Both the position numbers and the translations under genes were made by a program. Under the pieces are notes generated by a model, which had not been told where the DNA came from, did no database searches, and saw only the letters and a list, made by a program, of their open reading frames with translations. A stretch of DNA of 64,000 nt from Affinundibacterium seohonense (lineage in GTDB: Bacteria; Pseudomonadota; Gammaproteobacteria; Burkholderiales; Burkholderiaceae_D): positions 1 to 64,000 of the forward strand of contig NZ_JACOFW010000023.1 in NCBI RefSeq assembly GCF_014284305.1. Reading direction: 5' to 3'. Of the stretch, positions 22,563 through 50,992 are shown in pieces. How positions within the stretch are numbered: position 1 is the first letter of the stretch; every line of letters starts with the position of its first letter.

Positions 22563-23864
22563 ATGACAGCAAATTTGACACAAAAGAACGGACTATGGTG
22601 GATACCAAGCTTGGCATTCCTTGGCGCTATCCCGTTTATCATTGCACAACAGCTTTCTAGCGTCTTGTACAAAAACTTGGGTGTTTCGAATAGCGACATT
22701 ACTTTTTACACTAGCTTGCTTTACTTGCCATGGGTGATAAAACCATTATGGTCACCACTGATCGACATTTTCAAGACTAAGCGTGCTTGGATTATCGCCT
22801 TGCAAATGGCAATTGGTGCAGGATTAGCGGCACTCTCCTTAAGTCTGCATACGCCCTATTTTTTCGCGATTAGCCTACTGGTGTTTTGGTTCATTGCATT
22901 TGCCTCCGCCAGTCATGATATTGCAGCAGACGGTTTTTACATGCTGGCACTCAACAGCTCAGAGCAGGCGGCTTTCGTCGGTGTCCGTAGTTTATTTTTT
23001 CGTGTAGCAAACATTGTCGGTGGTGGTGTGCCGGTTATTTTTGTCGGACGACTGACGCAACACAATCAAGATATCACGCAGTCATGGTCGATTGTATTGA
23101 TGGTCATAGCTGCTATCTTTATTGCACTAACCCTCTACCATGCAGCGATATTGCCGCGCCCGACGAGTGATCAAAGTACTCTTGCTGCGTCAGAGTGCAA
23201 GCTGACTAGTCAACAGGTTCTTGCTGAATTTGCCGCGACTTTTCGCGAGTTCTTTCAAAAGAAGCAGATTCTTTTTGCGATTCTTTTCATCCTCTTATTT
23301 CGCCTCGGCGAAGCACAGGCCTTAAAGGTCGTGAGTTTATTTATGCTCGACCCACGCGCCAAAGGCGGCTTAGGTCTCAGCAATCAAGAGTTTGGCATCG
23401 TCTATAGCATCGTTGGAATCGCTTTTTTGACGATAGGCGGATTGCTCGGCGGTTGGTTGATTTCGCGGTATGGCCTAAAGCGAATGTTATGGCCTATGGT
23501 GCTGACTATGCATTTACCCAATCTGGCGTTTGTTTTCTTAGCGCTGGTACAACCGGAAAGTTTAACGATCATTGCTACTGCTCTGGCGATTGAGCAATTT
23601 GGGTATGGCTTCGGCTTTACCGCATTTTTAATGATCATGATGATGATTGCCGACGGTCCGAAAAAAACCTCACACTATGCGCTTTGCACAGGTTTCATGG
23701 CTGCAGGCATGATGATACCGGGCGCTTTTAGTGGTGACTTATCCCAATATCTTGGCTATGGAAGTTTCTTTATTTGGGCTTGTCTTTGCACAGTGCCCGG
23801 CTTGATATTGACCGCTTTTTTAAAGATAGAATCGGATTTTGGAAAAAAAGTCAGTGGCGCCTAA
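22563..23864 (+). CDS. AmpG-like muropeptide permease (MFS)
   Basis: A 433-residue polytopic membrane protein of the major facilitator superfamily, AmpG/PAT branch. The signature opening is LAFLGAIPFIIAQQLSSVLYKNLGVSN, followed by LPWVIKPLWSPLID and ASHDIAADGFYMLAL, which match AmpG-type proteins. AmpG carries GlcNAc-anhydroMurNAc peptides into the cytosol for recycling. About twelve membrane segments are visible. This is the first gene of a 28-kb stretch rich in peptidoglycan functions, which supports the call. AmpG homologues with other substrates (for instance siderophores in the same superfamily branch) exist, so substrate is inferred. Confidence 0.78.
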   Translation: MTANLTQKNGLWWIPSLAFLGAIPFIIAQQLSSVLYKNLGVSNSDITFYTSLLYLPWVIKPLWSPLIDIFKTKRAWIIALQMAIGAGLAALSLSLHTPYFFAISLLVFWFIAFASASHDIAADGFYMLALNSSEQAAFVGVRSLFFRVANIVGGGVPVIFVGRLTQHNQDITQSWSIVLMVIAAIFIALTLYHAAILPRPTSDQSTLAASECKLTSQQVLAEFAATFREFFQKKQILFAILFILLFRLGEAQALKVVSLFMLDPRAKGGLGLSNQEFGIVYSIVGIAFLTIGGLLGGWLISRYGLKRMLWPMVLTMHLPNLAFVFLALVQPESLTIIATALAIEQFGYGFGFTAFLMIMMMIADGPKKTSHYALCTGFMAAGMMIPGAFSGDLSQYLGYGSFFIWACLCTVPGLILTAFLKIESDFGKKVSGA

Positions 23865-24038
23865 GCCCTTCATAATGACTGCGTACTTTATACACGGATT
23901 TAGCACGCGTTATCCACACTAGATCTCGAACTAGCCCTCAGCCATAACTTGCGGTAATGCGAACCCAGTAAAGTCTCATTAGTAAGAAACGTTCTGACGG
24001 TCTATCCTAGCATTTCACGTACTTGATATGGTGGAGTT

Positions 24039-24668
24039 ATGAGATGGACTTTTTCTCGCTTGCTGATGGCTTTGATCAGCTTTGCATTGCTGCTAGCTAG
24101 CTTGTCCGCATGCACCTCAATGACCAAATCCGCTACCAATGCGAAAGCACAACAGCAAGTGCTACTCGTGTCTGTGCCCGAACAAAAAATGCTGTTCATC
24201 GAGAACGGTCAAGAACGCGAATTTTTTCTCATTTCCACCGCAAAAAAAGGCATCGGTGATGTGCCTGACAGCTATATGACGCCGGCCGGCACGATGGAGA
24301 TCGCTGAAAAATTTGGTGACAATTTGGCGCTCGGTAGTGTCCTAAAAGACCGTGTAGCTACTGGCGAAGTGGTACCGATAGAAGCCCCTGGACGAGACCC
24401 CATCGTCACCCGAGTTTTGTGGTTACGTGGACTAGAGGAACGCAATCGCAATGCCTATCCGCGCTTTATCTATATCCATGGCACGCCACAAGAAAGTCTA
24501 TTGGGGACAGCGGCTAGTTTTGGTTGTATCCGTATGCGCTCTGTCGACATTGTCAGACTTTACGATGCTATCGCTGTTGGCGCGAAAGTGGTGGTCAGCG
24601 AAGCGCCATTGGAGTCGCTCAAAGCACATTGGATGCTGGCGACAATGAGCGCAAGTGTGGATGAGTAA
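24039..24668 (+). CDS. L,D-transpeptidase (YkuD) family lipoprotein
   Basis: A 209-residue predicted lipoprotein: after a hydrophobic segment the lipobox LSAC gives a lipidated cysteine near residue 27. The YkuD catalytic domain has the conserved histidine in YIHGTPQE and the nucleophile cysteine in SFGCIRMRS. Enzymes of this fold cross-link peptidoglycan stems at meso-DAP, attach lipoproteins, or act as hydrolases. Located between the permease and D-amino-acid dehydrogenase genes, it fits the peptidoglycan theme. Length is compact, with no LysM or other binding domain. Confidence 0.88.
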   Translation: MRWTFSRLLMALISFALLLASLSACTSMTKSATNAKAQQQVLLVSVPEQKMLFIENGQEREFFLISTAKKGIGDVPDSYMTPAGTMEIAEKFGDNLALGSVLKDRVATGEVVPIEAPGRDPIVTRVLWLRGLEERNRNAYPRFIYIHGTPQESLLGTAASFGCIRMRSVDIVRLYDAIAVGAKVVVSEAPLESLKAHWMLATMSASVDE

Positions 24669-24733
24669 CGCCAATCAACGCGAACTTACCTGATCATTTT
24701 TTGAATCCTCCTTCCACCTACCACACAAATCGT

Positions 24734-26023
24734 ATGCATAGTTGCGTTCTCGGAGCCGGTGTTATCGGCGTCACTACGGCTTATCAGTTGTTAATGGCCG
24801 GGCATGAAGTTAGTCTGATTGAAGAACAGAGCCAAGTCGCGCAAATGACTAGCTTAGGCAATGGCGCGCAGCTCAGCTATTCCTATGTTGCCCCATTGGC
24901 CGATGCGTCAATTTGGAGAAAGTGGCCTGAATATTTATTCAGTCAGCATTCGCCACTGCGCCTTAAACCACAACTTGATCCTGCTTTGTGGCACTGGTTG
25001 TGGCAATTCTTAATGGCATGTAATCATCAAAGAGCCAATATCAGTAGCCGTCAACTTCTCACATTGGCGCAATTAAGCCAGGTGCAAATCGAACAGATTC
25101 GCGCACAACATGGATTTGACTTTCAACATCAAACCTCTGGCAAATTGGTGATGCTGAGCGACCAAGCGTCAATCGACGCGGCGGCTGGCCAGATTGCGTT
25201 TCAAGCGCAATATGGTTGTCAGCAGTCAATCTTAGGTATCAATCAATGTATAGAATTGGAGCCCGCATTAGCACACGCGCAAACCCGCTGGCTCGCTGGT
25301 GTTTACACCCCAGCAGAAGAAGTCGGAGATTGTGCAAGTTTTTGCCAACACTTATTGGCTACCATGGCGCAGTCACCGCGTTTTCAGTTTCTACCCAATG
25401 CACGTATCGAGTCGGCGCACCTCGTGGGCGGCAAGGTAAGTCACATCAACTTACGTCAAACGGAGACTGCAACTGGTTCTCCAACAACCCGTCATACCGC
25501 TGATCATTTTGTCGTCGCCATGGGGATAGAGAGCGCGCGCTTTGCTAAGATGCTCGGCTTTCGGCTTCCGGTGTACCCATTGAAGGGATATAGCATTACG
25601 GTACCGATTCGCGATGCAAATAGCGCATCGGCGCCACATATTTCCATCACGGATCTGTCCCAAAAGATCGTGTATGCACGGCTTGGTGATCGTCTTCGTG
25701 TGGCGGGCCGGGTCGAATTGGTTGGTCACGATTTACGCATACCGCCAGAAGCGATTGCCGAGTTGGTCAAAGCGACTCAGACTTTATTTCCTGAGAGTGG
25801 AGACTTAAACGCTGCAGAGCAACTATCGCCATGGGCGGGCTTGCGTCCCGCAACGCCGACCGGCGTTCCTATCTTGGGTAAATCGCCTATTGCCAATGTG
25901 TATTTGAATGTCGGTCACGGCGCACTCGGCTGGACATTGGCCTGCGGTAGTGCAAGCTTATTGCGCAGCGTTATTTGTGGCGAAACACCCGCCATTGATA
26001 TGACGGGCTTTGCCTTCCGCTAG
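24734..26023 (+). CDS. dadA: D-amino-acid dehydrogenase (DadA-like flavoprotein)
   Basis: A 429-residue FAD-dependent oxidoreductase of the DAO family. The N-terminal dinucleotide site is CVLGAGVIGVTTAYQLLMAGHEVSLIEE, and the DadA-type segment SLGNGAQLSYSYVAPLAD follows. The C-terminus has LSPWAGLRPATPTGVPILG and NVGHGALGWTLACGSA, as in DadA. It oxidises D-alanine and other D-amino acids to 2-oxo acids, passing electrons to the respiratory chain. Beside DacB and D,D-peptidases it would burn the D-alanine released from murein. A TTG 11 codons upstream is an alternative start; neither has a good ribosome binding site. Confidence 0.85.
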   Translation: MHSCVLGAGVIGVTTAYQLLMAGHEVSLIEEQSQVAQMTSLGNGAQLSYSYVAPLADASIWRKWPEYLFSQHSPLRLKPQLDPALWHWLWQFLMACNHQRANISSRQLLTLAQLSQVQIEQIRAQHGFDFQHQTSGKLVMLSDQASIDAAAGQIAFQAQYGCQQSILGINQCIELEPALAHAQTRWLAGVYTPAEEVGDCASFCQHLLATMAQSPRFQFLPNARIESAHLVGGKVSHINLRQTETATGSPTTRHTADHFVVAMGIESARFAKMLGFRLPVYPLKGYSITVPIRDANSASAPHISITDLSQKIVYARLGDRLRVAGRVELVGHDLRIPPEAIAELVKATQTLFPESGDLNAAEQLSPWAGLRPATPTGVPILGKSPIANVYLNVGHGALGWTLACGSASLLRSVICGETPAIDMTGFAFR

Positions 26024-26054: not shown

Positions 26055-27635
26055 TTATTGTAGAGGTGCGCTGACCGAGGATTGGCGACTCATAGGTTCC
26101 GCTGCGGCTTGTGCTTGCGTTAGTCCTTCCACTGCTTCACTTTCGACACCCGATGCCACCCACGCAATCAAAGCATCGAGCGCAGGTCGCGCTTTTGCTG
26201 CGTATTCGTGGTTAATCATACCGACCACGACCCAATGACGGTTTTGTTGATCGCGCACATAACCAGCCACCGCTACGGTATCGCGTAAAGTACCGGTTTT
26301 AATACGGGCGCGCGCTGCTGCCACTGTCCCGACTAAACGCTTACGCATAGTGCCATCCACCGCCACGATCGGCAAACTAGCGCTAAATTCAGCAAACCAA
26401 TTGCTCTGGCTTAGATGCAGCAAAAATGAACTCATTTGTTTGGCAGAGATACGTTCACTGCGAGACAACCCAGAGCCATTCTCGATCACAAAACCTTGGT
26501 CATCAATCCCTTGCTGACGCATCCATAGACGTACCCGCTCCTCTGCCGCATTGAAGCTAGTCACACCAGTCATCTTCGTACTCAATCCAGCGCTCAACTC
26601 GGCGCCCAGACTTAAGTACAATAAACGGGTCATGGCATTGTCGGAGCGTTTATTGATGATTCTAAGATTGTCCGCCAAAGTATCCGAGGATTTTTCCACC
26701 AGGGCGGTGGCAGTCGGAGGCACAGTGCCATCGATAGCGCGCCCTTTCCATTGCCCGCCCATTTCGGTCCAGAGTTGGCGCACCAAACTCTCGATATACA
26801 AGTTGCGATCAAGGATATTGAGACTATTTGTGATCTTGCAATCGCGCGGAAATTCGCCGCTTAGCGTGATTGTGGTGCGATGTCGGCGATCGGTTTTGAT
26901 GGTAGGCGGGATCCAACGTTGTTCCCACTGCGCGCAAGGAAAGTCTCCAACAGTCATGCGGTTATTGAGTCGTACTCGCGCCATCGGCGAAGACAAGCGC
27001 GTTTGCATTTTTTTCTGCGTACTGTCGAGTTCAAAACTCGTCAAATTACTATTCACTAGCAAGGCATCAGGAATCACGTTGTAGTACGCATCCGGTGTCT
27101 CATCAAATGGGGGCAAGTTCAGATCAAAACGACTCGGTTCAAAAAAACTACGATCGAGTATCAGATCCCCCTCAATACGATGAATACCTTGATCGTAAAG
27201 TGTTCTCAACATCATACCGAGGCGTTCCCAGCTCAAGTCAGGTGCGCCACCGCCACGCAAGTACAAGGGGCCACGCAAAGTATTTTTTTTCGTACTCCTA
27301 TTCGATGGCATTTTCCATGACTCGTCGCTGAGCAATTGCGTCTTCCATTTATAGGTTGGCCCCAGCACTTCCAAGGCAACTCCGCTGGTGACCAATTTCA
27401 TGGTCGATGCTGGACTCATAGGGACGTCCTCATGTATCGCCAATTTGGGTGCGCTACGATCGACAGGCTGTACTATCACCGCCAATGCAGAAGTGGGTAC
27501 ACCTGCCTGCTGCAAGGCTAGGGTCACACTTTGCGGCAAACTCTGCTGCGCTTGTACTTGTGCAGATACAAAGGGCAAACAACACCCGATGAATCCAAGA
27601 CAAAGTTGACGGTGCATCGATCTAACAGTAATCAT
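26055..27635 (-). CDS. dacB: D-alanyl-D-alanine carboxypeptidase/endopeptidase PBP4
   Basis: A ~526-residue periplasmic penicillin-binding protein of the S13 family. It has a signal peptide (HRQLCLGFIGCCLPFVSAQVQA) and the three active-site motifs: SxxK in SPASTMK near residue 77, SxN in KRSDNAMTRLL, and KTG in RIKTGTLRDTVAV. It removes terminal D-alanine and can cut D-Ala-mDAP cross-links. I chose ATG 27635 because AGGG lies 8 bases upstream; starts at 27650 and 27617 are also possible. It ends with an alanine-rich tail. It is convergent with dadA, which would use its D-alanine product. Confidence 0.92.
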   Translation of the reverse strand: MITVRSMHRQLCLGFIGCCLPFVSAQVQAQQSLPQSVTLALQQAGVPTSALAVIVQPVDRSAPKLAIHEDVPMSPASTMKLVTSGVALEVLGPTYKWKTQLLSDESWKMPSNRSTKKNTLRGPLYLRGGGAPDLSWERLGMMLRTLYDQGIHRIEGDLILDRSFFEPSRFDLNLPPFDETPDAYYNVIPDALLVNSNLTSFELDSTQKKMQTRLSSPMARVRLNNRMTVGDFPCAQWEQRWIPPTIKTDRRHRTTITLSGEFPRDCKITNSLNILDRNLYIESLVRQLWTEMGGQWKGRAIDGTVPPTATALVEKSSDTLADNLRIINKRSDNAMTRLLYLSLGAELSAGLSTKMTGVTSFNAAEERVRLWMRQQGIDDQGFVIENGSGLSRSERISAKQMSSFLLHLSQSNWFAEFSASLPIVAVDGTMRKRLVGTVAAARARIKTGTLRDTVAVAGYVRDQQNRHWVVVGMINHEYAAKARPALDALIAWVASGVESEAVEGLTQAQAAAEPMSRQSSVSAPLQ

Positions 27636-27688
27636 CCTATGTTCCCTCATTTCCTCAAGTGCTCAGGCAAACCATGCTGAGCCTACAT

Positions 27689-28145: not shown

Positions 28146-29300
28146 ATGCACGCTGCCAAGCCTAGACTACTGTCCTTAGATGCCTTTCGCGGGATGACGA
28201 TTGCCGCCATGTTTTTGGTAAATAATCCTGGTGACTGGGCGCACATCTATCCGCCATTGGCGCATGCCGCCTGGTCTGGTTGGACTCTGACCGATTGTAT
28301 CTTTCCATTTTTTCTTTTTATCGTCGGCGTTTCGCTGCAACTATCAATCGCCAATAAAACCGATTTACCCGAACATCGACGCCTACACTATTCGAAATTA
28401 TTGCGCCGTGCGGCGACTATTTTTTTGATCGGTCTAGTCCTCAACTTCATCCCGAGTTTTGACCTCTTGAGTCTACGCATTCCTGGTGTTTTGCAACGCA
28501 TCGCGCTTACCATCATGTTGGCTGGCGCTATCCTTATTTACTTCACGTGGCGTCAACAATGCGCGTGGATCTTCGCCATTCTTATCTTCTATACTGGCGT
28601 GATGTTACTAGTGCCAGCTCCTGATGCCGAGGGCGTTTGGGGGCGCGGTGTATTGGAACCAGGGCGCGACTTCGGTGCTTGGTTGGATCGTAGCCTCATG
28701 GAAGGACATCTCTGGAAGAAATCAAGAACCTGGGATCCGGAAGGTCTGTTTAGCACATTGCCTGCGACTGCGAGTGTGCTGTTTGGTGTATTGACCGGGC
28801 GTTTTTTAGGTAGCGCGATACCGCCACGTCAGCAGGTTTTCGCGCTCATCATATTCGGTATTGTTTGCATATTGCTAGGCCAAGTGATGGATCACTATTT
28901 AATGCCGATTAATAAGAGCTTGTGGACCAGCTCTTTTTGCGTCTTGATGACAGGTTGGGCTGTGCTCACTTTCACTGTGTTCTATTATCTACTCGATGCC
29001 AGCACGTCACTCCACTTAAAACAAAGGATGCGCACACTCAATTTGCCATTCACAATGTATGGACTCAATGCGCTATTTCTGTTTGCTTTAGCCAGTCTCT
29101 TGGCCAAGCTGATGGGATTTATACAGATTGGGCAAAGTGATGGCAGTGTCATGTCTTTACAAAAAACCTTATTCACACCGCTGACGACACTTCCCATTTC
29201 TGCATACAATGCGTCATTGTTGTTCGCCATACTGTTTAATTTACTGATGCTGACGATTGCCTATTTGATGTGGAAAAAATCGTGGTTTATTAAAGTGTAA
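28146..29300 (+). CDS. nagX: NagX-like membrane protein (heparan-alpha-glucosaminide N-acetyltransferase family)
   Basis: A 384-residue polytopic inner-membrane protein (COG4299/DUF5009). The family start LLSLDAFRGMTIAAMFLVNNPGDW and WTLTDCIFPFFLFIVGVSLQLS are clear, with about ten membrane segments and an invariant-looking LPATASVLFGVLTGR. Bacterial members named NagX are linked to N-acetylglucosamine utilisation and transport. Animal relatives transfer acetyl groups to glucosamine across the lysosomal membrane. Here it heads a run of plus-strand genes that includes a glycan hydrolase, an outer-membrane receptor and a peptide transporter, suggesting transport or acetylation of murein amino sugars. 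Confidence 0.82.
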   Translation: MHAAKPRLLSLDAFRGMTIAAMFLVNNPGDWAHIYPPLAHAAWSGWTLTDCIFPFFLFIVGVSLQLSIANKTDLPEHRRLHYSKLLRRAATIFLIGLVLNFIPSFDLLSLRIPGVLQRIALTIMLAGAILIYFTWRQQCAWIFAILIFYTGVMLLVPAPDAEGVWGRGVLEPGRDFGAWLDRSLMEGHLWKKSRTWDPEGLFSTLPATASVLFGVLTGRFLGSAIPPRQQVFALIIFGIVCILLGQVMDHYLMPINKSLWTSSFCVLMTGWAVLTFTVFYYLLDASTSLHLKQRMRTLNLPFTMYGLNALFLFALASLLAKLMGFIQIGQSDGSVMSLQKTLFTPLTTLPISAYNASLLFAILFNLLMLTIAYLMWKKSWFIKV

Positions 29301-29336: not shown

Positions 29337-30998
29337 ATGATCAATTGTCACCTTTCAAAGACGTCGATTCTTACGCGTATCAACAGCATCTCAGGCAAGC
29401 AAGTTGGCAGCATCATCGTCAGTTTCTTACTACTATTGTTAATGCTATTCTTGCTCAGTGCCTGTACCACAGCGGTGCAAGCTCCCGTTAATAAGATCCC
29501 AGAAACCGCAAACCCGAAGACGGCATCCTTGCCTCAAGATTTGGCACGGACGGCACCAACATCACTTGCAGCTGCACCAGCAGCACCGCGAGAATTCCGC
29601 GCGGCATGGGTCGCAACGGTATCCAATATTGATTGGCCAAGTCGACCTGGTCTAAGTAGTCAGCAGCAGCAAGACGAGATCATCGCGATTCTCGATCAAG
29701 CCAAAGCAATTGAACTCAATGCCATCATCTTGCAAGTGCGGCCTAGCGCCGATGCCATTTATCCTTCCGCGCTAGAGCCTTGGAGCGAATACCTGAGCGG
29801 CGAACAGGGGCGAGCGCCACAAGTTTGGTACGATCCTTTGCAGTTTTGGATAACACAAGCGCATCAACGTGGTCTGGAATTACACGCTTGGTTTAATCCC
29901 TATCGCGCCAAAACCGCGCTTTCAAAAGCAAACCTTAGCCCACAGCATGTCAGTAACAGAAAACCATCCGCCGTCAAAAAATATGGCGACTTACTATGGA
30001 TGGATCCCTCTGATGCCGACGCCGCAACGCAAACCCTCAACGTGATCATGGATGTAGTACGCCGATATGATATCGACGGGGTTCACATTGATGACTATTT
30101 TTATCCTTACCCGATCAAAGACGCGGCGGGCCAAGAAGTCGATTTCCCCGACGAAGAGAATTGGGTGCGATATCAAAACGAGGGTGGCGCACTCGCGCGT
30201 GCTGACTGGCGCCGCCAGCATGTCAATCATCTTGTTGAAAACATCGCACATAAGTTACGTCAAGAAAAATCGTGGGTAAAATTCGGCATTAGTCCATTTG
30301 GCATCGGGCGACCAGATCGCTTACCGCCGGGAATCACGGGCTTTAGTCAATACGATAAATTGTATGCCGATGTCGAGCTGTGGCTAGCACGTGGCTGGCT
30401 TGACTACCTCGCACCGCAATTGTATTGGCCTATCGACCAACCCGCTCAGGCGTTTCAGGTCTTACAAGATTATTGGACTCTTCAAAATACCATGGCACGT
30501 CATGTGTGGCCAGGTCTTTACACCAGCCGAATCGATCACAGCGACAAGTCTTGGACAAGTGAAGAGATACTGAATCAAATCAGCATCACCCGCGCGCAGG
30601 CGAGTGCCGGACATATTCACTTTAGTATGGTGGCATTGATGCAAAATCGCAAAGACATCGCCCAGCGACTGCGCCAAGAACGCTATCTCACGCCCGCGCT
30701 TGTCCCGGCAACGCCATGGTTATTTGCTGGCACCGTCACAACTCCGCGATTAATACGCACGGCAGATCCACAACATATCGAGGTCGCGTTTGACGATCAC
30801 CAAGCAATACGCTCAATAGCCATTTGGCGGCGCTATGAACATGATATGAAATACGAATGGATTTTCTCGTTACAACATCCTAGTGCAAAAAGCATTGATC
30901 TGAGCGACGACCTTCAACGAGGCAAGCTCACCGAGGTCGTCGTTAGCTTGGTGGATCGCGTGGGTCAAGAGAGTCAGCGCGCTCACTTCATTAAGTAA
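29337..30998 (+). CDS. GHL10-family glycoside hydrolase lipoprotein (DigH/YngK-like), first copy
   Basis: A 553-residue predicted lipoprotein (hydrophobic stretch then lipobox LLSAC near residue 43). The catalytic (beta/alpha)8 domain opens with REFRAAWVATVSNIDWPSRPG. It contains IILQVRPSADAIYPS, LHAWFNPYRA and DGVHIDDYFYPYP, whose paired aspartates are the likely active site, then DYLAPQLYWPI. A short C-terminal domain follows. E. coli DigH (YddW) of this family cuts denuded peptidoglycan glycan strands. The gene lies 36 bases after nagX, so it is probably co-transcribed. A related enzyme is encoded at 40256-41722. Confidence 0.87.
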   Translation: MINCHLSKTSILTRINSISGKQVGSIIVSFLLLLLMLFLLSACTTAVQAPVNKIPETANPKTASLPQDLARTAPTSLAAAPAAPREFRAAWVATVSNIDWPSRPGLSSQQQQDEIIAILDQAKAIELNAIILQVRPSADAIYPSALEPWSEYLSGEQGRAPQVWYDPLQFWITQAHQRGLELHAWFNPYRAKTALSKANLSPQHVSNRKPSAVKKYGDLLWMDPSDADAATQTLNVIMDVVRRYDIDGVHIDDYFYPYPIKDAAGQEVDFPDEENWVRYQNEGGALARADWRRQHVNHLVENIAHKLRQEKSWVKFGISPFGIGRPDRLPPGITGFSQYDKLYADVELWLARGWLDYLAPQLYWPIDQPAQAFQVLQDYWTLQNTMARHVWPGLYTSRIDHSDKSWTSEEILNQISITRAQASAGHIHFSMVALMQNRKDIAQRLRQERYLTPALVPATPWLFAGTVTTPRLIRTADPQHIEVAFDDHQAIRSIAIWRRYEHDMKYEWIFSLQHPSAKSIDLSDDLQRGKLTEVVVSLVDRVGQESQRAHFIK

Positions 30999-37207: not shown

Positions 37208-37220
37208 AAATACAATCATC

Positions 37221-43098: not shown

Positions 43099-44013
43099 AT
43101 GCGTTTACGTCATATCGAAGTGTTTCACGCCATCATGCAAGCAGGTACGATCAGTGGTGCTGCGCAGATTTTGAGTATTTCTCAACCGGCAGCAACTAAA
43201 GTCTTGCAGCACTGCGAATTGCGACTTGGTTTAAAATTATTTGAACGCATCAAAGGCAAATTACATCCGACACCAGAAGCACGCAAATTATTTGTCGAAG
43301 TCGATAAATTAAACCGTGATTTACAAGCAGTGCGCCGCCTAGCATCGAATCTAAAAAACAATCCCGACGAAGCGGTCAGATTGGCATCAACACCCACTTT
43401 GTCGATGACAATTATTCCAGCCGCCTTATCAGCATGGCGAAGCAAATTCCCCAAAGTGCATTGTTCTTTAGCCTCGCAACACACGAGTGAAATCGTCAGT
43501 GCTTTATTGCTTGGTGATGTGGATTTTGCGATTTCCTTGTACGATCCGAATCACCCTAGTATTGCCGCAGAATCCTTAACGCAAGGTCGAATGACGGCGA
43601 TTGCGCCCAAAGGAACATGGGCAGCCACACTGGATAACACACCACTACCGATTAAAGAACTGCCAAAAGAATTAATCGCGCTTGATTTGGATGATCACTT
43701 GGCGGGTCGGGTTATGGACGCTTGCTCTGAACAGGGCTTGCAATTTAATACCTATACCGTGGTGCAAACGTATTTATTGGCACGCACGATGGTCGAACAC
43801 GGTGCGGGCTCGGCTGTGATCGATCCGTTTACCGCTGCCACTGCTGATCATCAACGCGTGCAATGTCGCCCCATCATCCCTGTGGTGCCAGTCGATTTGT
43901 ATTTATTGACGATGAAGTCAATTCCTCTATCGCGCTCGGCTTTGGCCTTTGTGCAAAATCTGCGCGACGTCGCCGCCGACTGCATAGCCAAAACTAACGG
44001 CGCTAGGTCATAG
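43099..44013 (+). CDS. LysR family transcriptional regulator
   Basis: A 304-residue LysR-type regulator. The winged helix reads IEVFHAIMQAGTISGAAQILSISQPAATKVLQHCELRLG, followed by an effector domain (VRLASTPTLSMTIIPAALSAWRSKFP, GDVDFAISLYDP). It follows murQ by 66 bases on the same strand and may be co-transcribed. It probably controls part of the murein locus; classical murQ regulators are RpiR-type (MurR), so a LysR here is different. The effector is unknown. Confidence 0.9.
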   Translation: MRLRHIEVFHAIMQAGTISGAAQILSISQPAATKVLQHCELRLGLKLFERIKGKLHPTPEARKLFVEVDKLNRDLQAVRRLASNLKNNPDEAVRLASTPTLSMTIIPAALSAWRSKFPKVHCSLASQHTSEIVSALLLGDVDFAISLYDPNHPSIAAESLTQGRMTAIAPKGTWAATLDNTPLPIKELPKELIALDLDDHLAGRVMDACSEQGLQFNTYTVVQTYLLARTMVEHGAGSAVIDPFTAATADHQRVQCRPIIPVVPVDLYLLTMKSIPLSRSALAFVQNLRDVAADCIAKTNGARS

Positions 44014-44135
44014 TCATTTAGTCTCTGATAGTCTCAGCGCACAAGGTGCTGAGATTACGTTCTTACGACCGCGCAAGACCCTAGTCACTCAGTCTTTGAT
44101 AATCTCAGCGTACAAGGCACTGAGTATGCGTTCTT
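44011..44135. repeat. Degenerate direct repeat of a gene 3' end
   Basis: 44011-44064 and 44082-44135 match with about 80 percent identity. The right copy encodes the last residues of the serine hydrolase (ERILSALYAEIIKD, then stop). The left copy, read in the same frame and strand, gives ERNLSTLCAETIRD and a stop. It looks like the relic of a duplicated gene end, now overlapping the stop codon of the LysR gene. Confidence 0.7.
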
Positions 44136-45489
44136 CCCATGGGCTCAGACTAGAATATTCACCAAACAAAGCTTCGGAATCGGCTGACAAACCGCCTAAC
44201 GCAAAGATCATGCCGTTTCGTGTGACAGGGTCAAACATAAAACCGGAATTCAAACCATAGGCTTCACCCAAATGTCCAAAACCAGTGAACGACGGCGTCT
44301 GCCTGACTAAGCGATCACCATAATGTGCCGCGCTAACGTCGGTAAAATGTTGAAAGCCCAAACTCCAAGATAGAAACATACCACGATCATTATCGCCGTT
44401 CTTGCGTGCCGCATCGTAGCGCCATTGCACCTGCAATAGTTGTGCGACGCTGGCAGGCTGCAATATACGCACGCCATCAAGCTCACCTTGATTCATCAAC
44501 ATTTGCATTAAGCGCGCCAAGCCCCGCACAGTGGTGCGAAGTCCACCTTGCGGACTAAAGAGGCTCGCATTTGCGCCTAACACATAGCTGTCTATCCCAG
44601 CTCGCTTGAGCGGTGCTTTGCCGCGATAGTCATCGACTTGAACGATCCACGGCCCACTTGGATTCCACACAGTGTCATGTTCTTTTTTCTTGCGATAAAG
44701 GACGGCGACATTGGCGAGTTCTTCCACACTCAATTCCTCAGGATTGTAGCCACCGGCCATACCCAAAGGACGCAACAACTGATCGCGCATGAAATGATCA
44801 AAACGTTGACCACTCACTGCTTCCATCACCGAGCCGAGGATGCCCCAATTCAAATTAACGTAGCGAAAAAAATGTCCGGGGGCATGCGACGATTCTTGAC
44901 TGGCCTTATCCCATTGTGACCCGTCGCCGTAATGCGCTCCGCCCGGCACCAAGAAACTCTTCAAATTGACCTTGATTGGAAAATTGTAACCAGCATCATC
45001 GCGCAATGACGAGGTATGGCTCAACAACATACGGGTAGTAATCGGCGCAGTAGGAAAATGAGGATTGCGGATCTGAAAACCGAGATAGCGACTAATGTCC
45101 GCATCCAGATCGAGTTTGCCTTGTTCAACCAAAATCATCGCACCAACAGCCGCCACCATCTTTGACACCGAGGCCATGCGGTACAAGGTCTGATCATTAG
45201 CCAGCATGTCTTGCGCAGCATCCTCAGGATGAATATAACGACGACCAAATTGGTTTTCGTACACCACCTTGCCCTGCTTGATCGCGATCACGGAAAGACT
45301 AGCCAGAGCTTGGCTTGGGTGATTGACAGTTTGCTGTAGAACTTGATCGGTGTTTTGCGTCATGGGCGTACTCCTTTGAGGCGGCGACATCGCTTGTGTC
45401 TGCTCGTGGCAAGTCAGGGCAAAGAAAGAAAACAGCAGCATGGCTGCACTTTTTTTGTGGGTATCGTTCAGGCTGAGTAGCGTAGACAT
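44089..45489 (-). CDS. Beta-lactamase-fold serine hydrolase (class C-like)
   Basis: A 466-residue protein of the beta-lactamase/DD-peptidase superfamily (S12). After a signal-like segment (MLLFSFFALTCHEQTQA) come SxxK in MASVSKMVAAVGAMIL, YxN in FFRYVNLNWGIL and an HxG-type motif in FTGFGHLGEAYG. Members include AmpC, D-aminopeptidases and esterases. Sequence alone does not show antibiotic resistance. Lying four bases after a D-Ala-D-Ala dipeptidase gene it probably acts on D-amino-acid peptides from murein. The 3' end is partially duplicated downstream. Confidence 0.85.
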   Translation of the reverse strand: MSTLLSLNDTHKKSAAMLLFSFFALTCHEQTQAMSPPQRSTPMTQNTDQVLQQTVNHPSQALASLSVIAIKQGKVVYENQFGRRYIHPEDAAQDMLANDQTLYRMASVSKMVAAVGAMILVEQGKLDLDADISRYLGFQIRNPHFPTAPITTRMLLSHTSSLRDDAGYNFPIKVNLKSFLVPGGAHYGDGSQWDKASQESSHAPGHFFRYVNLNWGILGSVMEAVSGQRFDHFMRDQLLRPLGMAGGYNPEELSVEELANVAVLYRKKKEHDTVWNPSGPWIVQVDDYRGKAPLKRAGIDSYVLGANASLFSPQGGLRTTVRGLARLMQMLMNQGELDGVRILQPASVAQLLQVQWRYDAARKNGDNDRGMFLSWSLGFQHFTDVSAAHYGDRLVRQTPSFTGFGHLGEAYGLNSGFMFDPVTRNGMIFALGGLSADSEALFGEYSSLSPWEERILSALYAEIIKD

Positions 45490-45493: not shown

Positions 45494-46093
45494 TTAATCG
45501 ATTCTTAAGTAAGTTTGCCGAACCACATCGGGATCGCCAAAATTAAAATGCCACCATTCACTATTAATGCCACGAAACCCAGCACCAAACATGGCCTCGC
45601 GCAATAACTGACGATTTTCGAATTGACTAGGTGTGAGCGTGCCATTGGCCAAAAATTCTAGTTCCTGCTTGGGGTGCGATTTCTCTACCAATGCATCAAA
45701 TCCTGTTCCCATATCGAGCTCTTGCCCATGTTCATCGAGTATCGTCACGTCCAAGGCCATACCAAAAGAGTGTATAGAACCGCGCGCAGGATCGGCGACA
45801 TAAGAGCGCAAAGTGGTTCCCTCTAAATGCTTCCATAACATTTCTTGCACCCGATGCGGACGCAAAGCATCGAGTACCACCAATCGATAAGTCGGTTGTT
45901 TGGCGCGCAAGATCGCGACCGCATCGACTAGTCCTTGTGCCGCTTCCCTATGCAGCCAACGACAATCTAAACTGCCATAAAGATCGCGTCCAACAAAATT
46001 GTTATCTCCTACGTAACGCAGATCGATGACAATGCCAGCGATGTCATCAAGGCGTTTAAATTCAGCGTGATCTTTTATGTCTTCACACAACAT
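45494..46093 (-). CDS. ddpX: D-alanyl-D-alanine dipeptidase (M15D, DdpX/VanX-like)
   Basis: A 199-residue zinc dipeptidase. The metal motif SxHxxGxAxD is seen in GSIHSFGMALDVTI, with the catalytic glutamate and third ligand in SEWWHFNFGD. The N-terminal IVIDLRYVGDNNFVGRDLYG also matches VanX/DdpX. It splits D-Ala-D-Ala. No vanH, vanA or vanRS is nearby, so it is a catabolic enzyme like E. coli DdpX, not a resistance determinant. It lacks a signal peptide, so it acts in the cytosol on imported dipeptides, consistent with the Dpp-type transporter. It forms an operon with the serine hydrolase. Confidence 0.92.
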   Translation of the reverse strand: MLCEDIKDHAEFKRLDDIAGIVIDLRYVGDNNFVGRDLYGSLDCRWLHREAAQGLVDAVAILRAKQPTYRLVVLDALRPHRVQEMLWKHLEGTTLRSYVADPARGSIHSFGMALDVTILDEHGQELDMGTGFDALVEKSHPKQELEFLANGTLTPSQFENRQLLREAMFGAGFRGINSEWWHFNFGDPDVVRQTYLRID

Positions 46094-46248: not shown

Positions 46249-47271
46249 CTACCCCCTCTGCAAGCGTTGACTGGATTTTGCCAAGTAAAACCATTCTTCA
46301 TTTTTTTTAGCATTGGCGTCGGGGAAAATAATTCTGGCATCCATCTCGGCTCGTATTTCAGTCCCGTCGTCACGTACCCCGATAACGTCACCTTGTTTGA
46401 GCGTATCAAAACTCGCCCAAGCGCGGACAAAGCGATCATCGTCATGCTGTTTATCGACGACTTCATAGATCCGTAAAGTCTCCATGTCACCAGGTGCTTC
46501 ACCTGTCGGTACTTCATTCATCGGCGCAGCGATCAATTGCAAGCAAGCCATCGCGTTGATGATGGCCTGATAAGCAATCTCCTTCGACTTTGGGTCTTGA
46601 TGTTGGCCACATTCTAAGGTGAGTGCGTAGCCGCCAACGCTGCGCATATACTCGGTGGTCCCCATACCAAATGCGGCATCAATGGCGCAACTCGGATCGC
46701 CATCTTCAACAGTGATTTGATCACGCCGCCGCGCTACGCCTTTCGCATACGTCGTCAACCAACCATCAACAAAACGCTGTACGCCCAAAGCTTGTGCTAA
46801 TTTTTCTTCTTGCGCGGAGAAACTAAAGGCTTCAATTTCACCTTGATTATTTTCAGGGCCGACCATAACAAAGGCCTGCCCTTCACCGCGAAACGAATGC
46901 AAATCCAACAGGACTTCATGTTGCTGCATCAAAGGGCATAGCCAATTGGCGACATGATCTTCAAATTCTTGCGGCGTCGATGTCGGACGTAAGCGCCGGT
47001 TTAAGTTGCGATCGCCCTCACGCTGCTGACGCTGATAGGCAAGCGGATTCGCCACTGGCACAAACGTCACGCTGCCACGCTGAAGTAAAATTTCCCCAGA
47101 TTCGATTTGCGCCATCACTCTCCGTATCGCTTCGGTGCCACAAATCTCATTACCATGCACTGCGCCGGTGATCAACATCCGCACCCCAGCTTGTGGTGAA
47201 GTGAAATTGTGACTTTGAAAATGCAAGGATGGGCTTAACTCGCCGCCTGCCGCTGGTTGTGTTGATGTCAT
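46249..47271 (-). CDS. M14 family succinylglutamate desuccinylase/aspartoacylase-like protein
   Basis: A 340-residue zinc hydrolase of the AstE/AspA branch of M14. Zinc ligands are in ITGAVHGNEICGTEAI (H and E) and LLDLHSF (H); a conserved arginine/asparagine pair is in EGDRNLNRRL. The C-terminal ~90 residues form a small beta domain (IYEVVDKQHDDDRFVRAWASFD). The start at 47271 is preferred over a GTG eight codons upstream. The substrate is uncertain. MpaA, the murein tripeptide amidase, is also M14, so a role on gamma-D-Glu-DAP bonds is possible here, but the sequence does not prove it. The spacer to ddpX is 155 bases. Confidence 0.8.
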   Translation of the reverse strand: MTSTQPAAGGELSPSLHFQSHNFTSPQAGVRMLITGAVHGNEICGTEAIRRVMAQIESGEILLQRGSVTFVPVANPLAYQRQQREGDRNLNRRLRPTSTPQEFEDHVANWLCPLMQQHEVLLDLHSFRGEGQAFVMVGPENNQGEIEAFSFSAQEEKLAQALGVQRFVDGWLTTYAKGVARRRDQITVEDGDPSCAIDAAFGMGTTEYMRSVGGYALTLECGQHQDPKSKEIAYQAIINAMACLQLIAAPMNEVPTGEAPGDMETLRIYEVVDKQHDDDRFVRAWASFDTLKQGDVIGVRDDGTEIRAEMDARIIFPDANAKKNEEWFYLAKSSQRLQRG

Positions 47272-47621
47272 AAAGCTCTCTCTGAAATTTGGCACGCAAT
47301 CCTCACAAGCGCTGCTCGCATCGCGCTCAATCTATTGCTGATCGACGCACCTAAACCTCTGGTAGATATTGTTGATATGTAGCAAGCATTTTCCCAGAAA
47401 AAAGCAGGTTCCGCGAGTCACTTTTCCTCGGCTATCCATACATTAAGGTTATGGCACTAACGCTTCTTTTCATTGTTACGCAAAGCTCTTCACACTTAGA
47501 CTAAACGCATCTCACCTGAGGTTTGCTTCTAACTTTACAAGTGTCTTACTCATTTCCCTAGATGCAGAAACATCGGCAATGTAGTCAGTCAATGTCTTTA
47601 GCTCGTTTTGGATACTTTATT
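47272..47621. other. Spacer between divergent M14 and cyclodeaminase-like genes
   Basis: About 350 bases with no gene. It should contain the two divergent promoters. I see no strong hairpin or convincing operator. Confidence 0.4.
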
Positions 47622-48536
47622 ATGCACATGATTACCGACCAACAGGTCGCTCAAGTCTTGACTATGCGCGAGGCAATTGATGCGCTACGTCAGGCGTTCA
47701 TTCAATTTGGCAATGGCGCTGGTGCCGTCTTAGCTAGAGGACGCGCCACCGCAGAGTTTGAAGGCCGCGCAAGCACCATCAGTGCGATGGGGGCCGCCTT
47801 GCCTGGAACGGATGTAGTCGGTACCAAGGTGTACTCGACCGTCAATGGCCAATTCAATTTTGTGATCGTCCTATTTTCAGCAACAACTGGCTCTTTATTG
47901 GCGACGATGCAAGCGAATCAACTCACCAGATTGCGCACAGCAGCAGCCACTGCGCTTGCAGCTGAAAAGTTAGTGAGAAAAGATGCCCGTGTTCTGGCAA
48001 TTTTTGGTAGCGGTGTGCAAGCACAGGCCCATATCGAAGCCTTGCTATTGGTGCATCCCTTCACCCAAGTTTTGGTTTGTGCGCGTAGCAACGCCCAGCA
48101 GTTCGCAACCGACATTACCGCCAAGTACAAAATACCAACCGCGGTGGTTGATGCCATGACCGCAGCATCGACTGCAGACGCCATTGTTACTTGCACCCGA
48201 TCTAATGAGAGTTTGTTCGATGGGAACTTAGTCAAAGCAGGCTGCTTTATAGCAGCGGTCGGCTCCAGTAAACCCATCGCGAGAGAAATCGACGATACTT
48301 TATTGTCTCGCGCCGCCCGCATTGTGGTGGAATGGTTGCCTGCGGCAAAGGCCGAAGCGGGCGAGTTTGTGCGAGCCGCCGCCGGTATTATCGAAGACGA
48401 TAAAGTCGTGGAACTAGGTCACGTACTAGCAGCCAACGAGGTTCGCAATGACCATGACATCGTGATTTACAAATCGGTCGGCATTGGTCTTGAAGATATC
48501 GCGATTGCCAAATTGATAGTTGATAAAATTGGGTGA
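47622..48536 (+). CDS. Ornithine cyclodeaminase/mu-crystallin family protein
   Basis: A 304-residue NAD(P)-binding enzyme of the OCD family. The Rossmann site is LAIFGSGVQAQAHIEALLL, preceded by NQLTRLRTAAATALAAEKLV; GKVYSTV-like and AVGSSKPIAREIDD segments are also typical. The family includes ornithine cyclodeaminase, archaeal alanine dehydrogenase, and imino-acid reductases. Next to amino-acid-releasing murein enzymes, an alanine or DAP-related dehydrogenase activity is possible; the sequence does not decide. ATG 47622 is taken because the conserved fold starts there; the frame is open 20 codons further upstream. Confidence 0.82.
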   Translation: MHMITDQQVAQVLTMREAIDALRQAFIQFGNGAGAVLARGRATAEFEGRASTISAMGAALPGTDVVGTKVYSTVNGQFNFVIVLFSATTGSLLATMQANQLTRLRTAAATALAAEKLVRKDARVLAIFGSGVQAQAHIEALLLVHPFTQVLVCARSNAQQFATDITAKYKIPTAVVDAMTAASTADAIVTCTRSNESLFDGNLVKAGCFIAAVGSSKPIAREIDDTLLSRAARIVVEWLPAAKAEAGEFVRAAAGIIEDDKVVELGHVLAANEVRNDHDIVIYKSVGIGLEDIAIAKLIVDKIG

Positions 48537-48636: not shown

Positions 48637-49644
48637 ATGGAATCGACCACAAGCACCATGCCAGGACAGCATCGCCCACAAGCGATCAGCGCGACTGGTT
48701 TGGGGATAGACATGGGCGGCACGCAAACCCGTTGGGCCTTAGCGGATGAAGCTGGCACTATTTTGTCGGAAGGTGCAGTCGATGGCGCGACCGCTTTGCA
48801 ACTAGGCAATCTGGCTGGGCAGGTGGCACTACAAGCTTTGTTTTCTTCAATTGCCCAACAATTACAACGTGCGACAGATCTGCGCCACGAGATTTTCTCA
48901 CTACAAGCAGGACTGACTGGCTATAGTGGTGATGCGACCGCAGCAAAGCAGATGTTGAGTTCACTCTTTGCGCTACCTGAGAACGCTATCCACATCAGTA
49001 ACGATATTGAAATTGCTTACCTCGATACCTTTCAACCGGGCGAAGGTTACCTTGTTTATGCTGGGACGGGATCGATTGCGGCCTTCATCGATCAGGCAGG
49101 CAATTTTCATCGTGCAGGCGGTCATGGCTATGTGTTGGACGATGCTGGCAGCGGGTATTGGATCGCCCGCGAAGCACTCAAGCGCATTTGGCGAGAAGAG
49201 GATTTTCACCCTGGCGCATGGCGCTCATCTCCCATGGCGACAGCAATGTTTGCCCTAATTGGTGGCGAGGAGTGGAAGCATACGCGCGAATTTATTTATC
49301 AACGATCGCGCGGCGAAGTGGGTAAATTGGCTTTAGCACTTGGCACAACCGCCGACATGGATAGAACTGCTTACACCATTTTAGAAAATGCGGGTATCGA
49401 ATTGGCGCGTTTGGCACGTGCCTTGTGTCACCGGTTTGGCCAAAAGCCCATCGCCTTGTCAGGGCGTGTACAAGAACTACATCCGATTATTGCCGAAACG
49501 ATGAAAAAGCACCTGCACGATACCAGCGACCTCCGACTCTGCGAAAATCTCGGTCATCACAGTGCGGCCCGCATCGCAGCATCGCGCATCCCACAAGGTC
49601 CTGAACGCATCGCTGTTCGCACCGAACAAATCAATCGCACATAA
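48637..49644 (+). CDS. N-acetylglucosamine/N-acetylmuramate kinase family protein (BadF/BcrA type)
   Basis: A 335-residue sugar kinase of the NAGK/BadF ATPase family. The phosphate-1 motif is GIDMGGTQTRWAL; YAGTGSIAAFID and GHGYVLDDAGSGYWIAREAL follow, as in NAGK. MurK of Clostridium, in the same family, phosphorylates both MurNAc and GlcNAc at O6. With MurQ in the same locus and no MurP, this kinase would supply MurNAc-6-phosphate. It is followed after 24 bases by the amidase gene, in an apparent operon kinase-amidase-carboxypeptidase. Confidence 0.85.
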   Translation: MESTTSTMPGQHRPQAISATGLGIDMGGTQTRWALADEAGTILSEGAVDGATALQLGNLAGQVALQALFSSIAQQLQRATDLRHEIFSLQAGLTGYSGDATAAKQMLSSLFALPENAIHISNDIEIAYLDTFQPGEGYLVYAGTGSIAAFIDQAGNFHRAGGHGYVLDDAGSGYWIAREALKRIWREEDFHPGAWRSSPMATAMFALIGGEEWKHTREFIYQRSRGEVGKLALALGTTADMDRTAYTILENAGIELARLARALCHRFGQKPIALSGRVQELHPIIAETMKKHLHDTSDLRLCENLGHHSAARIAASRIPQGPERIAVRTEQINRT

Positions 49645-49668
49645 ATACTCATAGAATCGACCATCGAC

Positions 49669-50475
49669 ATGAAATCTCTACTAGTCTTATTCCTTAGCTT
49701 AGGTCTACTCAGCGCGTGTTCAACAACGCGACCTTTTACGATGGATCAGCTCAATACCTCGATCACGGCGAAAAGCCAGGCGAGTCGCGCCCGGTTTTTA
49801 ATATTGCACTACACCGCTTTAGATCAAGCGCGTTCCTTGCACGTGCTAACAGAACAAGCTGTCAGTAGTCACTATTTGGTGGGCGACGACCAACCCAACA
49901 CGGTCTACCGATTAGTCGATGAATCGCGCATGGCACTCCACGCGGGTGTCAGTAGTTGGAAAACACACGCGCAACTCAATGCCAGTTCGATAGGCATAGA
50001 GATCGTTAATTTGGGATATGTAGAGACGCCGACGGGACGGCAATACCAAGCCTTTCCGCAACAACAAATTGATACGGTGATTACCCTCATCAAGGACATC
50101 GTGGCACGGCATGGCATCAAACCAGAAAACATCTTGGGACATGGAGAAATAGCGCCCCAACGCAAGCCAGATCCGGGACCGCTCTTCCCTTGGAAACAAC
50201 TTGCAGACGCGGGTTTGATCGAGTGGCCAAACGCGGACGCGGTAGCAGCTCAATTACTGATCTTTCAACAAGCCTTGCCCGATGCTGTTTGGTTTCAAAC
50301 AAAATTAGCTGAGATTGGCTATGCGACACCCAAAACTGGCATTTGGGATCAAGAGAGCAAAAACGTCTTAATCGCTTTTCAATGCCGCTACCGACAACAC
50401 ACATTTGACGGCATACCAGATGCAGAATCTGCCGCCTTGTTAGAAGTCATCACGAGCAAGAAAAAACTTCCATAA
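49669..50475 (+). CDS. amiD: N-acetylmuramoyl-L-alanine amidase lipoprotein (AmiD-like)
   Basis: A 268-residue lipoprotein (lipobox LLSAC at residue 17). The amidase_2 domain has zinc ligands in ILHYTALDQARS, SRMALHAGVSSW and HGEIAPQRKPDPGPLFPW, matching E. coli AmiD. A C-terminal peptidoglycan-binding domain (IGYATPKTGIWDQESKNVLIAFQ) follows from about residue 205. It cuts MurNAc-L-Ala bonds on the inner face of the outer membrane, releasing stem peptides. Two lipid-anchored or secreted murein hydrolases (this and GHL10) in one locus suggest coordinated attack on glycan and peptide. Confidence 0.92.
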   Translation: MKSLLVLFLSLGLLSACSTTRPFTMDQLNTSITAKSQASRARFLILHYTALDQARSLHVLTEQAVSSHYLVGDDQPNTVYRLVDESRMALHAGVSSWKTHAQLNASSIGIEIVNLGYVETPTGRQYQAFPQQQIDTVITLIKDIVARHGIKPENILGHGEIAPQRKPDPGPLFPWKQLADAGLIEWPNADAVAAQLLIFQQALPDAVWFQTKLAEIGYATPKTGIWDQESKNVLIAFQCRYRQHTFDGIPDAESAALLEVITSKKKLP

Positions 50476-50485
50476 GCGTGACAAT

Positions 50486-50992
50486 ATGAGCTTGATAATT
50501 TTAGAAGAACTAGGAATCGCTGAGGAACTCATACAGCGACGTGGCTTACCGCTGCATGCTGAGGAAAGCGACTTGATCGTGGCAGAAACGCAGCAAGATG
50601 GTCGAACATTTTTGTTGACACCAGCGACCGCCCAGGCTTGGCATGCCATGAAACACCAAGCATCGATAGACGGCATAGACCTAGTGATGATTTCTGCCTT
50701 TCGCAGTGTCGAAAGACAGGCAAGCATCATTCGTGACAAGATCACTGAGGGATGTGAGATCAACGCCATACTCGAAGTCTGCGCACCACCCGGCTATAGT
50801 GAGCACCACACAGGACGCGCGATTGACATTGCCTCGATTGACGATCCACATTTAGAAATTCGCTTTGAGCTTACACCGACCTTTGATTGGCTCACAAAGC
50901 ATGCGGCACAATTTGGTTTCTCTATGTCCTATCCGAGAGAGAATCCTTTTGGATTCCAATATGAACCTTGGCATTGGTGTTTTAGGCCTTGA
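50486..50992 (+). CDS. D-alanyl-D-alanine carboxypeptidase, VanY-like (M15B)
   Basis: A 168-residue zinc carboxypeptidase. Ligands are in YSEHHTGRAIDIAS (SxHxxGxAxD) and YEPWHWCF (ExxH-type). VMISAFRSVERQASII precedes them, as in VanY. No signal peptide is seen, so it probably acts in the cytosol on imported peptides, or is exported by another route. It removes terminal D-alanine from stem peptides. It starts 10 bases after amiD. There is no van regulon nearby. Confidence 0.88.
   Translation: MSLIILEELGIAEELIQRRGLPLHAEESDLIVAETQQDGRTFLLTPATAQAWHAMKHQASIDGIDLVMISAFRSVERQASIIRDKITEGCEINAILEVCAPPGYSEHHTGRAIDIASIDDPHLEIRFELTPTFDWLTKHAAQFGFSMSYPRENPFGFQYEPWHWCFRP

Follow-up and report, generated by a model that had tools for sequence, protein, structure and literature searches.

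A MurQ-containing gene cluster of Affinundibacterium seohonense as a probable locus for peptidoglycan uptake and utilisation

Here, we examine a block of murein-related genes at positions 22563-50992 of a 64-kb stretch of Affinundibacterium seohonense DNA (contig NZ_JACOFW010000023.1; hereafter the window), by means of searches of the window's proteins against Pfam and NCBIfam profiles. With a probability of roughly 0.6, the sequence evidence points to a MurQ-based catabolic locus for the uptake and utilisation of peptidoglycan (muropeptides), i.e., a counterpart of the ampG-murTKQ operon of Tannerella, with external murein as its likely main source. The locus is real and conserved, and presents a known general kind of system in a new lineage and form. 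An earlier note on this DNA, made from the sequence alone, had proposed a dedicated, clustered system for peptidoglycan degradation and uptake, a proposal that gene content and conserved linkage support. Each gene class that it named was recovered in place by profile search, and four genes absent from its list, encoding a YkuD lipoprotein, a LysR regulator, an S12-type hydrolase and an ornithine cyclodeaminase (OCD)-family enzyme, also belong to the block. Other bacteria are the best candidate source of the murein, because 13 of 20 relatives have a homolog of the TonB receptor in their cluster (43-51% identity) and because AmgK-MurU, AnmK and another AmpG-like gene are encoded elsewhere in the genome.

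Conservation, linkage and partner genes

Among 145 genomes from 44 genera of the family, the first of the two GHL10 genes of the locus, GHL10a, was found in 42 (the window's own included), covering six of seven genomes of the genus and eight of the 44 genera. MurQ lies within 15 kb of GHL10a in 37 of these 42 genomes and within 5 kb in 32, with other members alongside; the scattered arrangement that the earlier note had named as evidence to the contrary is thus not what relatives display. Neighbourhoods of about 40 kb around GHL10a (about 26 kb in G120) from 20 of the 41 relatives were searched with the window's proteins as queries (E-value 1e-10, 40% of length). PBP4 was matched in 19 of the 20, the AmpG-like permease, DdpX, the kinase and the amidase in 17 each, MurQ in 16, the LysR regulator in 14 and the S12 hydrolase in 11; in G063 and G104 the AmpG-like gene lies just beyond the edge of the stretch. 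A DadA-like gene is near GHL10a in 11 of the relatives (37-40% identity), and weak Dpp-family matches (21-34% identity) occur in these stretches. Such linked recurrence, for which no random-pair control was run, argues against a chance assembly of the locus.

The same block, whole or in part, is present in five further MurQ-bearing genomes of the genus, and is fullest in G542 and G564, with the order NagX-GHL10a-receptor-YkuD-MurQ-LysR-S12-DdpX-binding protein-AstE-AmpG-kinase-amidase-VanY. The binding protein of this block type is 20-22% identical to DppA, and one copy (G119) was confirmed as SBP_bac_5. This lone SBP_bac_5 gene stands between AstE and DdpX in relatives (e.g., L039, 7384-9246), a place where the window lacks it; no permease genes were matched beside it, and a permease encoded elsewhere might be shared. 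The OCD gene occurs at the same place in G558 (71% identity). In G063 the cluster is interrupted, between YkuD and the receptor, by genes for an arsenical pump and ArsA (L041, 9008-12895), an example of how unrelated genes break up the block in some relatives. MurQ itself is patchy, with matches in 13 of 36 genomes of the genus (some incomplete) and in 11 of 323 genomes of a class sample at 1e-40, which fits an optional trait.

Beyond the family set, we scanned flanks of up to 10 kb (some contigs being shorter) around the best 80 of 595 confirmed GHL10a matches, two of which (L126 and L128) probably come from the same genomes as G045 and G027. Within these best 80, MurQ and AmpG-like matches were found in 23 flanks each, and records labelled Massilia (which belongs to the window's GTDB family), Duganella, Roseateles, Inhella and Pelomonas carry the MurQ-AmpG-GHL10a core, as do metagenome-assembled genomes (MAGs) labelled Methylibium and Holophagaceae. 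DppBCDF is part of the block in Inhella crocodyli and Roseateles noduli (61-72% identity) and in an uncultured beta proteobacterium (37-48%), so the Dpp link recurs. In six Bacteroidota records, MurQ and GHL10 are no more than 10 kb apart. As side observations from the same 80 matches, GHL10 stands beside an AmpG-like gene in Planctomycetota, KSB1 and Melioribacter records (L136, L152, L170, L173, L200), an association that spans phyla, and the Holophagaceae MAG (L134) carries MurQ-AmpG-NagX-GHL10-kinase-amidase at 45-59% identity, which may reflect either interphylum transfer or a binning error. At a threshold of 1e-40, a phylum sample of 398 genomes gave GHL10a matches in 16, of which a single family accounts for 13. 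Outside the family, searches with the window's proteins alone around GHL10a of G461 and MurQ of G839, G800, G744, G159 and G584 matched no other locus protein save ABC ATPases and a 27% identical GlmS (G744).

Partner genes are encoded on other contigs of the window's genome, in which MurQ was found once, inside the locus (search at 1e-30). Contig C109 carries MurU (316.8 bits, above the cut-off of 250) with an adjoining AmgK-type kinase (400.7 bits, cut-off 550), C98 carries AnmK, and C90 a nag cluster with a GntR regulator, NagA, NagB-II, a NagZ-like GH3 enzyme (208 bits, cut-off 207), a BadF-type kinase and a TonB receptor. Three AmpG-like genes were found at 1e-30, all under the cut-off of 350 bits: that of the locus (186), one on C76 (264) and one on C82 (162). 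The last (C82:29827-31029; L212) adjoins a second NagX-like gene with an HGSNAT domain and forms with it a second small AmpG-NagX pair.

Gene products and proposed route

As the earlier note had it, the block is bordered by an insertion sequence and glmS, i.e., upstream by an IS3-kind transposase open reading frame outside the system (21343-22152; + strand, as are all genes below unless marked -; Pfam rve, 1.6e-32, and HTH_21) and downstream by GlmS (51695-53524, -; SIS, 3.3e-54, and GATase domains). Best supported are the identities of MurQ (42019-43032; NF003915, 361 bits, cut-off 168; TIGR00274, 297 bits, cut-off 302), the DadA-type D-amino acid dehydrogenase (24701-26023; NF001933, 445 bits, cut-off 383) and the S13 DD-carboxypeptidase/endopeptidase PBP4/DacB (26055-27650, -; TIGR00666, 191 bits, cut-off 108), each above an NCBIfam cut-off. 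The AmpG-like, NagX-like, kinase, DdpX-type, DppA-type and YkuD proteins all score below theirs; we therefore regard the first five as family members and not as confirmed equivalogs, and the exact roles of all six are given below as predictions. MurQ probably starts about 40 codons downstream of its annotated start, as most homologs align first from residue 31-45 onward. Translations read by eye have lipobox-like signals in GHL10a, the amidase and the YkuD protein, and Sec-like signals in GHL10b (after a likely downstream start), PBP4, the S12 hydrolase, DppA and the receptor; no export signals were seen in MurQ, the kinase, DdpX, VanY, the AstE-like protein, the OCD enzyme or DadA. This distribution of signal-like N-termini suggests a division of the locus proteins into an envelope part and a cytosolic part.

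In the route that we infer from these families, peptides would be trimmed and cross-links opened by PBP4, the probably exported S12/beta-lactamase-fold hydrolase (44089-45489, -; PF00144, 6.7e-46), for which the best matches of solved structure are 2qmi, a beta-lactamase-fold protein related to PBPs, and carboxylesterases, and the YkuD lipoprotein, a candidate ElsL-like L,D-carboxypeptidase (24039-24668; PF03734, 1e-16; NF040925 ElsL, 1.4e-32, 113 bits, cut-off 270; lipobox-like LLASLSAC). GHL10a (29337-30998; PF02638, 9e-63), a Cwp19-like lytic transglycosylase or glycan hydrolase, and GHL10b (40256-41971, -; PF02638, 5.8e-52) would cut glycan strands at N-acetylmuramic acid (MurNAc), probably leaving anhydroMurNAc ends. 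Residues 84-439 of GHL10a align with residues 24-371 of Cwp19 (5oq2, 1.4e-69), a clear similarity to a GHL10 lytic transglycosylase, and GHL10b matches Cwp19 weakly (2.4e-6). Hydrolysis instead of anhydroMurNAc formation is possible, by analogy, because DigH, which we take to be a GHL10 protein (the term was not found on searching the DigH paper), is described as a hydrolase. DigH of E. coli acts on denuded glycan at the cell's own septum (PMC12288456), and Cwp19 is described as a demonstrated lytic transglycosylase that forms some reducing-end products too (PMC6016235). An AmpDh2/AmiD-type amidase lipoprotein with a peptidoglycan-binding domain (49669-50475; PF01510, 3.3e-28; PF01471), nearest among solved structures to AmpDh2 (4bpa, 1.2e-85) and then to AmiD (2bh7, 3.5e-50), would strip peptides.

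Soluble fragments would pass the outer membrane through the TonB-dependent receptor (31572-34322; PF00593, 2.9e-36; PF07715, 1.6e-18), for which alignment A3 served identities and invariant columns only. We rejected a SusC/SusD-type polysaccharide utilisation locus: the receptor scores 19.6 bits on the SusC signature TIGR04057 (cut-off 46.2), and a Pfam scan of the locus proteins detected no SusD. At the inner membrane, the NagX-like protein (28146-29300; NF046061, 1.5e-45, 156 bits, cut-off 480), a candidate transacetylase or alternatively a MurT-type transporter, would re-acetylate the amino sugar or help to import it. His40 of its HA.W.G motif, which we take to be the catalytic histidine of HGSNAT, is conserved in all 21 matches examined, among them the C82 paralogue and two pairs probably from the same genome. 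NagX has been proposed to be a membrane-spanning enzyme that acetylates glucosamine, and is noted to be distantly related to MurT, the MurNAc transporter of Tannerella (PMC9007349). The AmpG-like permease of the major facilitator superfamily (22563-23864; TIGR00901, 7.7e-55; misframed rows L117, L116 and L135 were dropped from alignment A2 before A4 and the structure job) would import the sugar part. Peptides would enter, in this strain, via the DppA-type binding protein (34500-36137; PF00496, 9.4e-91; dipeptide-binding protein 1dpe, 7.5e-133; 478 bits, NCBIfam cut-off 1005) and DppB, DppC, DppD and DppF (36200-37207, 37179-38177, 38182-39189 and 39194-40201; profile matches, for DppF by Pfam only).

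In the cytosol, the NagZ-like GH3 enzyme (C90) would split the disaccharide, AnmK (C98) and the locus kinase would give MurNAc-6-phosphate (MurNAc-6-P) and N-acetylglucosamine-6-phosphate (GlcNAc-6-P), MurQ, the MurNAc-6-P etherase, would convert MurNAc-6-P into GlcNAc-6-P and D-lactate, and NagA and NagB-II (C90) would feed glycolysis. AnmK would be required because the product of GHL10a is anhydroMurNAc, if this enzyme is a lytic transglycosylase like Cwp19. The BadF-type, NAGK/MurK-like kinase (48637-49644; PF01869, 6.6e-15; 73 bits, NCBIfam cut-off 370) matches NagK (1zc6, 4.3e-10) and a MurNAc/GlcNAc kinase (8zo3, 5.5e-9) about equally. An Asn precedes the Asp aligned with the catalytic Asp, as in 8zo3, which decides no specificity; according to the Tannerella MurK paper, MurNAc binding is not readable from sequence.

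Peptides would be dismantled in the cytosol by the M15B carboxypeptidase VanY (50486-50992; PF02557, 6.6e-37), the M15 D-Ala-D-Ala dipeptidase of DdpX type (45494-46093, -; PF01427, 1.9e-31; PRK10178, 149 bits, cut-off 176), DadA and an AstE/AspA-type metallohydrolase (46249-47295, -; PF24827, 1.9e-16). The last was called an M14 enzyme in the earlier note; a metallohydrolase gene is indeed present, but PF24827 and the fold matches assign it to the AstE/AspA type. Foldseek ranked succinylglutamate desuccinylase, EutE and aspartoacylase-type structures first (3na6, 9.7e-16) for its AlphaFold2 model (mean predicted local distance difference test score 75, from 8 sequences), with the cyanophycin dipeptide hydrolase CphZ from rank 25 and the murein peptidase Csd4 at rank 44. 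An identity as MpaA-type murein peptide amidase is not supported, given no MpaA-titled row among the best 50 of 94 Foldseek matches (E-value 0.001) and the same nearest families in sequence search; a murein peptide as substrate is suggested by the neighbouring genes alone. The OCD/mu-crystallin family enzyme (47562-48536; PF02423, 1.5e-48) is the single locus gene without an obvious murein role.

The LysR-type regulator (43099-44013; PF03466/PF00126) is nearest among NCBIfam models to PRK11013, far under its cut-off (122 of 288 bits), which we take to be the model of E. coli LysR. E. coli LysR responds to diaminopimelic acid (PMC5002191), and the locus protein may activate the locus in response to a murein product, an inducer that is no more than a fair guess. 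When 105 upstream stretches from related genomes, which include coding DNA, were scanned for dyads, most of those recovered were GC-rich or A/T-rich and occurred in up to 14 stretches, against a best of 4 to 6 in each of 20 mononucleotide shuffles that are blind to dinucleotide and codon bias; nothing was concluded from it. Outside the block, ARAGORN calls a tRNA-Ile (GAT) at 57469-57560 (-) inside the start of a 443-aa open reading frame on the + strand (57449-58780), and either call may be wrong.

Evidence against the proposed locus and alternative explanations

Several findings weigh against a complete and uniform peptidoglycan utilisation locus. The earlier note's "full clustered route" to GlcNAc-6-P was overstated, as AnmK, the NagZ-like enzyme, NagA and NagB-II are all encoded outside the locus, on other contigs, and as Dpp (at more than 40% identity), GHL10b and OCD are near GHL10a in none of the 20 relatives. 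Composition varies further, with NagX in 5 of these 20, AstE in 4, YkuD in 4 and VanY in 1; the receptor is missing from 7, and no DadA-like gene is near GHL10a in the five relatives of the genus. The receptor and DadA-like counts also carry a chance share of unmeasured size, because TonB receptors and FAD oxidases are large families. GHL10a and MurQ are on different contigs in 2 of the 42 genomes, three others (G085, G040, G120) have no MurQ match, and MurQ of G562 (C1:1277279-1278180) consists of two overlapping pieces with stops and may be broken. The Undibacterium squillarum block, which has the genus-type gene order (AstE 57%, LysR 66% identity), has no MurQ or receptor match in the 21.5 kb searched. 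To these add the scores of several members under curated NCBIfam cut-offs and the lack of a common LysR operator in the intergenic stretches of the window, which were searched for exact dyads and for 9-mers that they share.

The locus might mainly recover the cell's own wall turnover, as a catabolic arm for surplus murein with a TonB receptor that recaptures leaked fragments. All its murein enzyme classes are also known from ordinary recycling, and several enzymes look, by eye, like lipoproteins or periplasmic proteins instead of secreted ones. DigH, too, works on own septal glycan in E. coli (PMC12288456). The genome nevertheless holds a separate recycling set (the AmpG-like gene on C76, AnmK on C98, AmgK-MurU on C109), and MurQ is patchy although wall turnover is general; we consider this explanation unlikely. 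That the locus chiefly serves GlcNAc glycans such as chitin or chitosan, with the murein genes as side members, is improbable: no chitin use is known for MurQ, DdpX, VanY, PBP4, YkuD or the amidase, Pfam scans found no chitinase domain among the locus proteins, and on C90 the genome already has a nag cluster that comprises a TonB receptor, a kinase, NagA and NagB-II, even if the kinase resembles NagK and NagX is frequent in chitin operons and required for glucosamine use (PMC9007349).

A loose accumulation of cell-wall genes around glmS/glmU that do not work together would explain the mixed strands, and hence several transcription units, as well as a gene order that varies between genera and the unrelated genes that intervene in some relatives. 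Yet GHL10a and MurQ are linked in at least one genome of each of the eight genera, and GlmS was not matched in any stretch from the 20 relatives, so closeness to glmS does not hold the block together; we judge such an accumulation very improbable. A beta-lactam sensing or resistance island of the ampC-ampR kind is suggested by a beta-lactamase-fold gene that adjoins a LysR gene, together with AmpG- and AmpD-type genes. The hydrolase is no class C beta-lactamase by score (NF033085, 41 of 415 bits) and was matched in only 11 of the 20 relatives, its gene is convergent and not divergent with that of LysR, and none of the 11 NCBIfam models that the LysR protein matches at 1e-15 represents AmpR, in a library that may contain no such model. 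We rejected such an island, and give it next to no weight. As for the earlier note's suggestion of bacterivory, it has no direct support: no locus protein resembles a prey-killing weapon, and killing systems outside the locus were not searched for.

Two MurNAc routes and comparison with known systems

Beta- and gammaproteobacteria are said to have either the MurQ or the AmgK-MurU route (PMC5371407), and Gram-negative bacteria to use one of two pathways (PMC5371409). In 50 genomes chosen for GHL10a (42) or MurQ (8), and hence not a random sample, MurU scores over its cut-off in 48 (all but G019 and G027) and MurQ is found in 47 (all but G085, G040 and G120; in pieces in G562); AmgK was checked in the window's genome only. 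Both are present in 45 of the 50, which runs against the either/or rule of PMC5371407, and the co-occurrence may already be visible in the 1,773-taxa figure of PMC5371409. No description of an Oxalobacteraceae MurQ cluster or of a muropeptide TonB receptor was found in open-access literature titles and abstract starts; a paper on such a MurQ cluster could still exist.

It is tempting to propose, tentatively and at somewhat less than even odds, that many Massilia- and Undibacterium-like bacteria run two MurNAc economies, one that returns their own wall via AnmK/AmgK-MurU and one that burns foreign wall via a TonB-linked GHL10-AmpG-MurQ locus, with a LysR-type relative of the diaminopimelate-responsive LysR as possible sensor. 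Such a system would amount to TonB-dependent murein feeding in proteobacteria and would break the rule of either MurQ or AmgK-MurU. If true, it would offer a natural case in which MurNAc-6-P has a catabolic (MurQ) or an anabolic (AmgK-MurU) fate within a single cell; two papers of 2017 present these branches as alternatives (PMC5371407, PMC5371409). It would further point to an outer-membrane protein as candidate muropeptide receptor, and would make the use of murein as carbon and nitrogen source genetically accessible in a widespread bacterial group. Members of this group live in soil and fresh water.

Among known systems, the murQRP-amiE-nagZ-namZ rescue operon of Bacillus subtilis is likewise a clustered MurQ set for external or turned-over muropeptides, and differs in import by a phosphotransferase system, secreted enzymes of other families and the absence of an outer membrane. 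We take YbbC of Tannerella to be of this NamZ type. The Caulobacter nag clusters resemble the locus in TonB-dependent amino-sugar uptake; they serve GlcNAc, the paper describing them reports that no MurQ homolog was found in Caulobacter, and their closer counterpart is the C90 cluster of the window's genome (PMC13046382). The AnmK-MurQ recycling of E. coli shares the MurQ chemistry and the catabolic fate via GlcNAc-6-P, whereas E. coli lacks the AmgK-MurU route and the window's genome has both (PMC5371407). The nine-gene operon of Tannerella forsythia contains YbbC, and its description in PMC5388701 names no GHL10, TonB receptor, Dpp, LysR, DdpX or DadA; Tannerella is, moreover, a MurNAc auxotroph. 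What it has in common with the locus is an AmpG permease, MurQ and a sugar kinase in one cluster (ampG-ybbC-murTKQ; PMC5388701, PMC7670621), the AmpG-family permease being linked to MurQ here as there (22563-23864 and 42019-43032). A MurT-like membrane protein would be a further likeness if the locus NagX is MurT-like (PMC9007349). Tannerella also has AmgK-MurU as a route to UDP-MurNAc beside the catabolic MurK-MurQ route (PMC7670621), and draws its murein from the environment, as we likewise propose for the locus described here.

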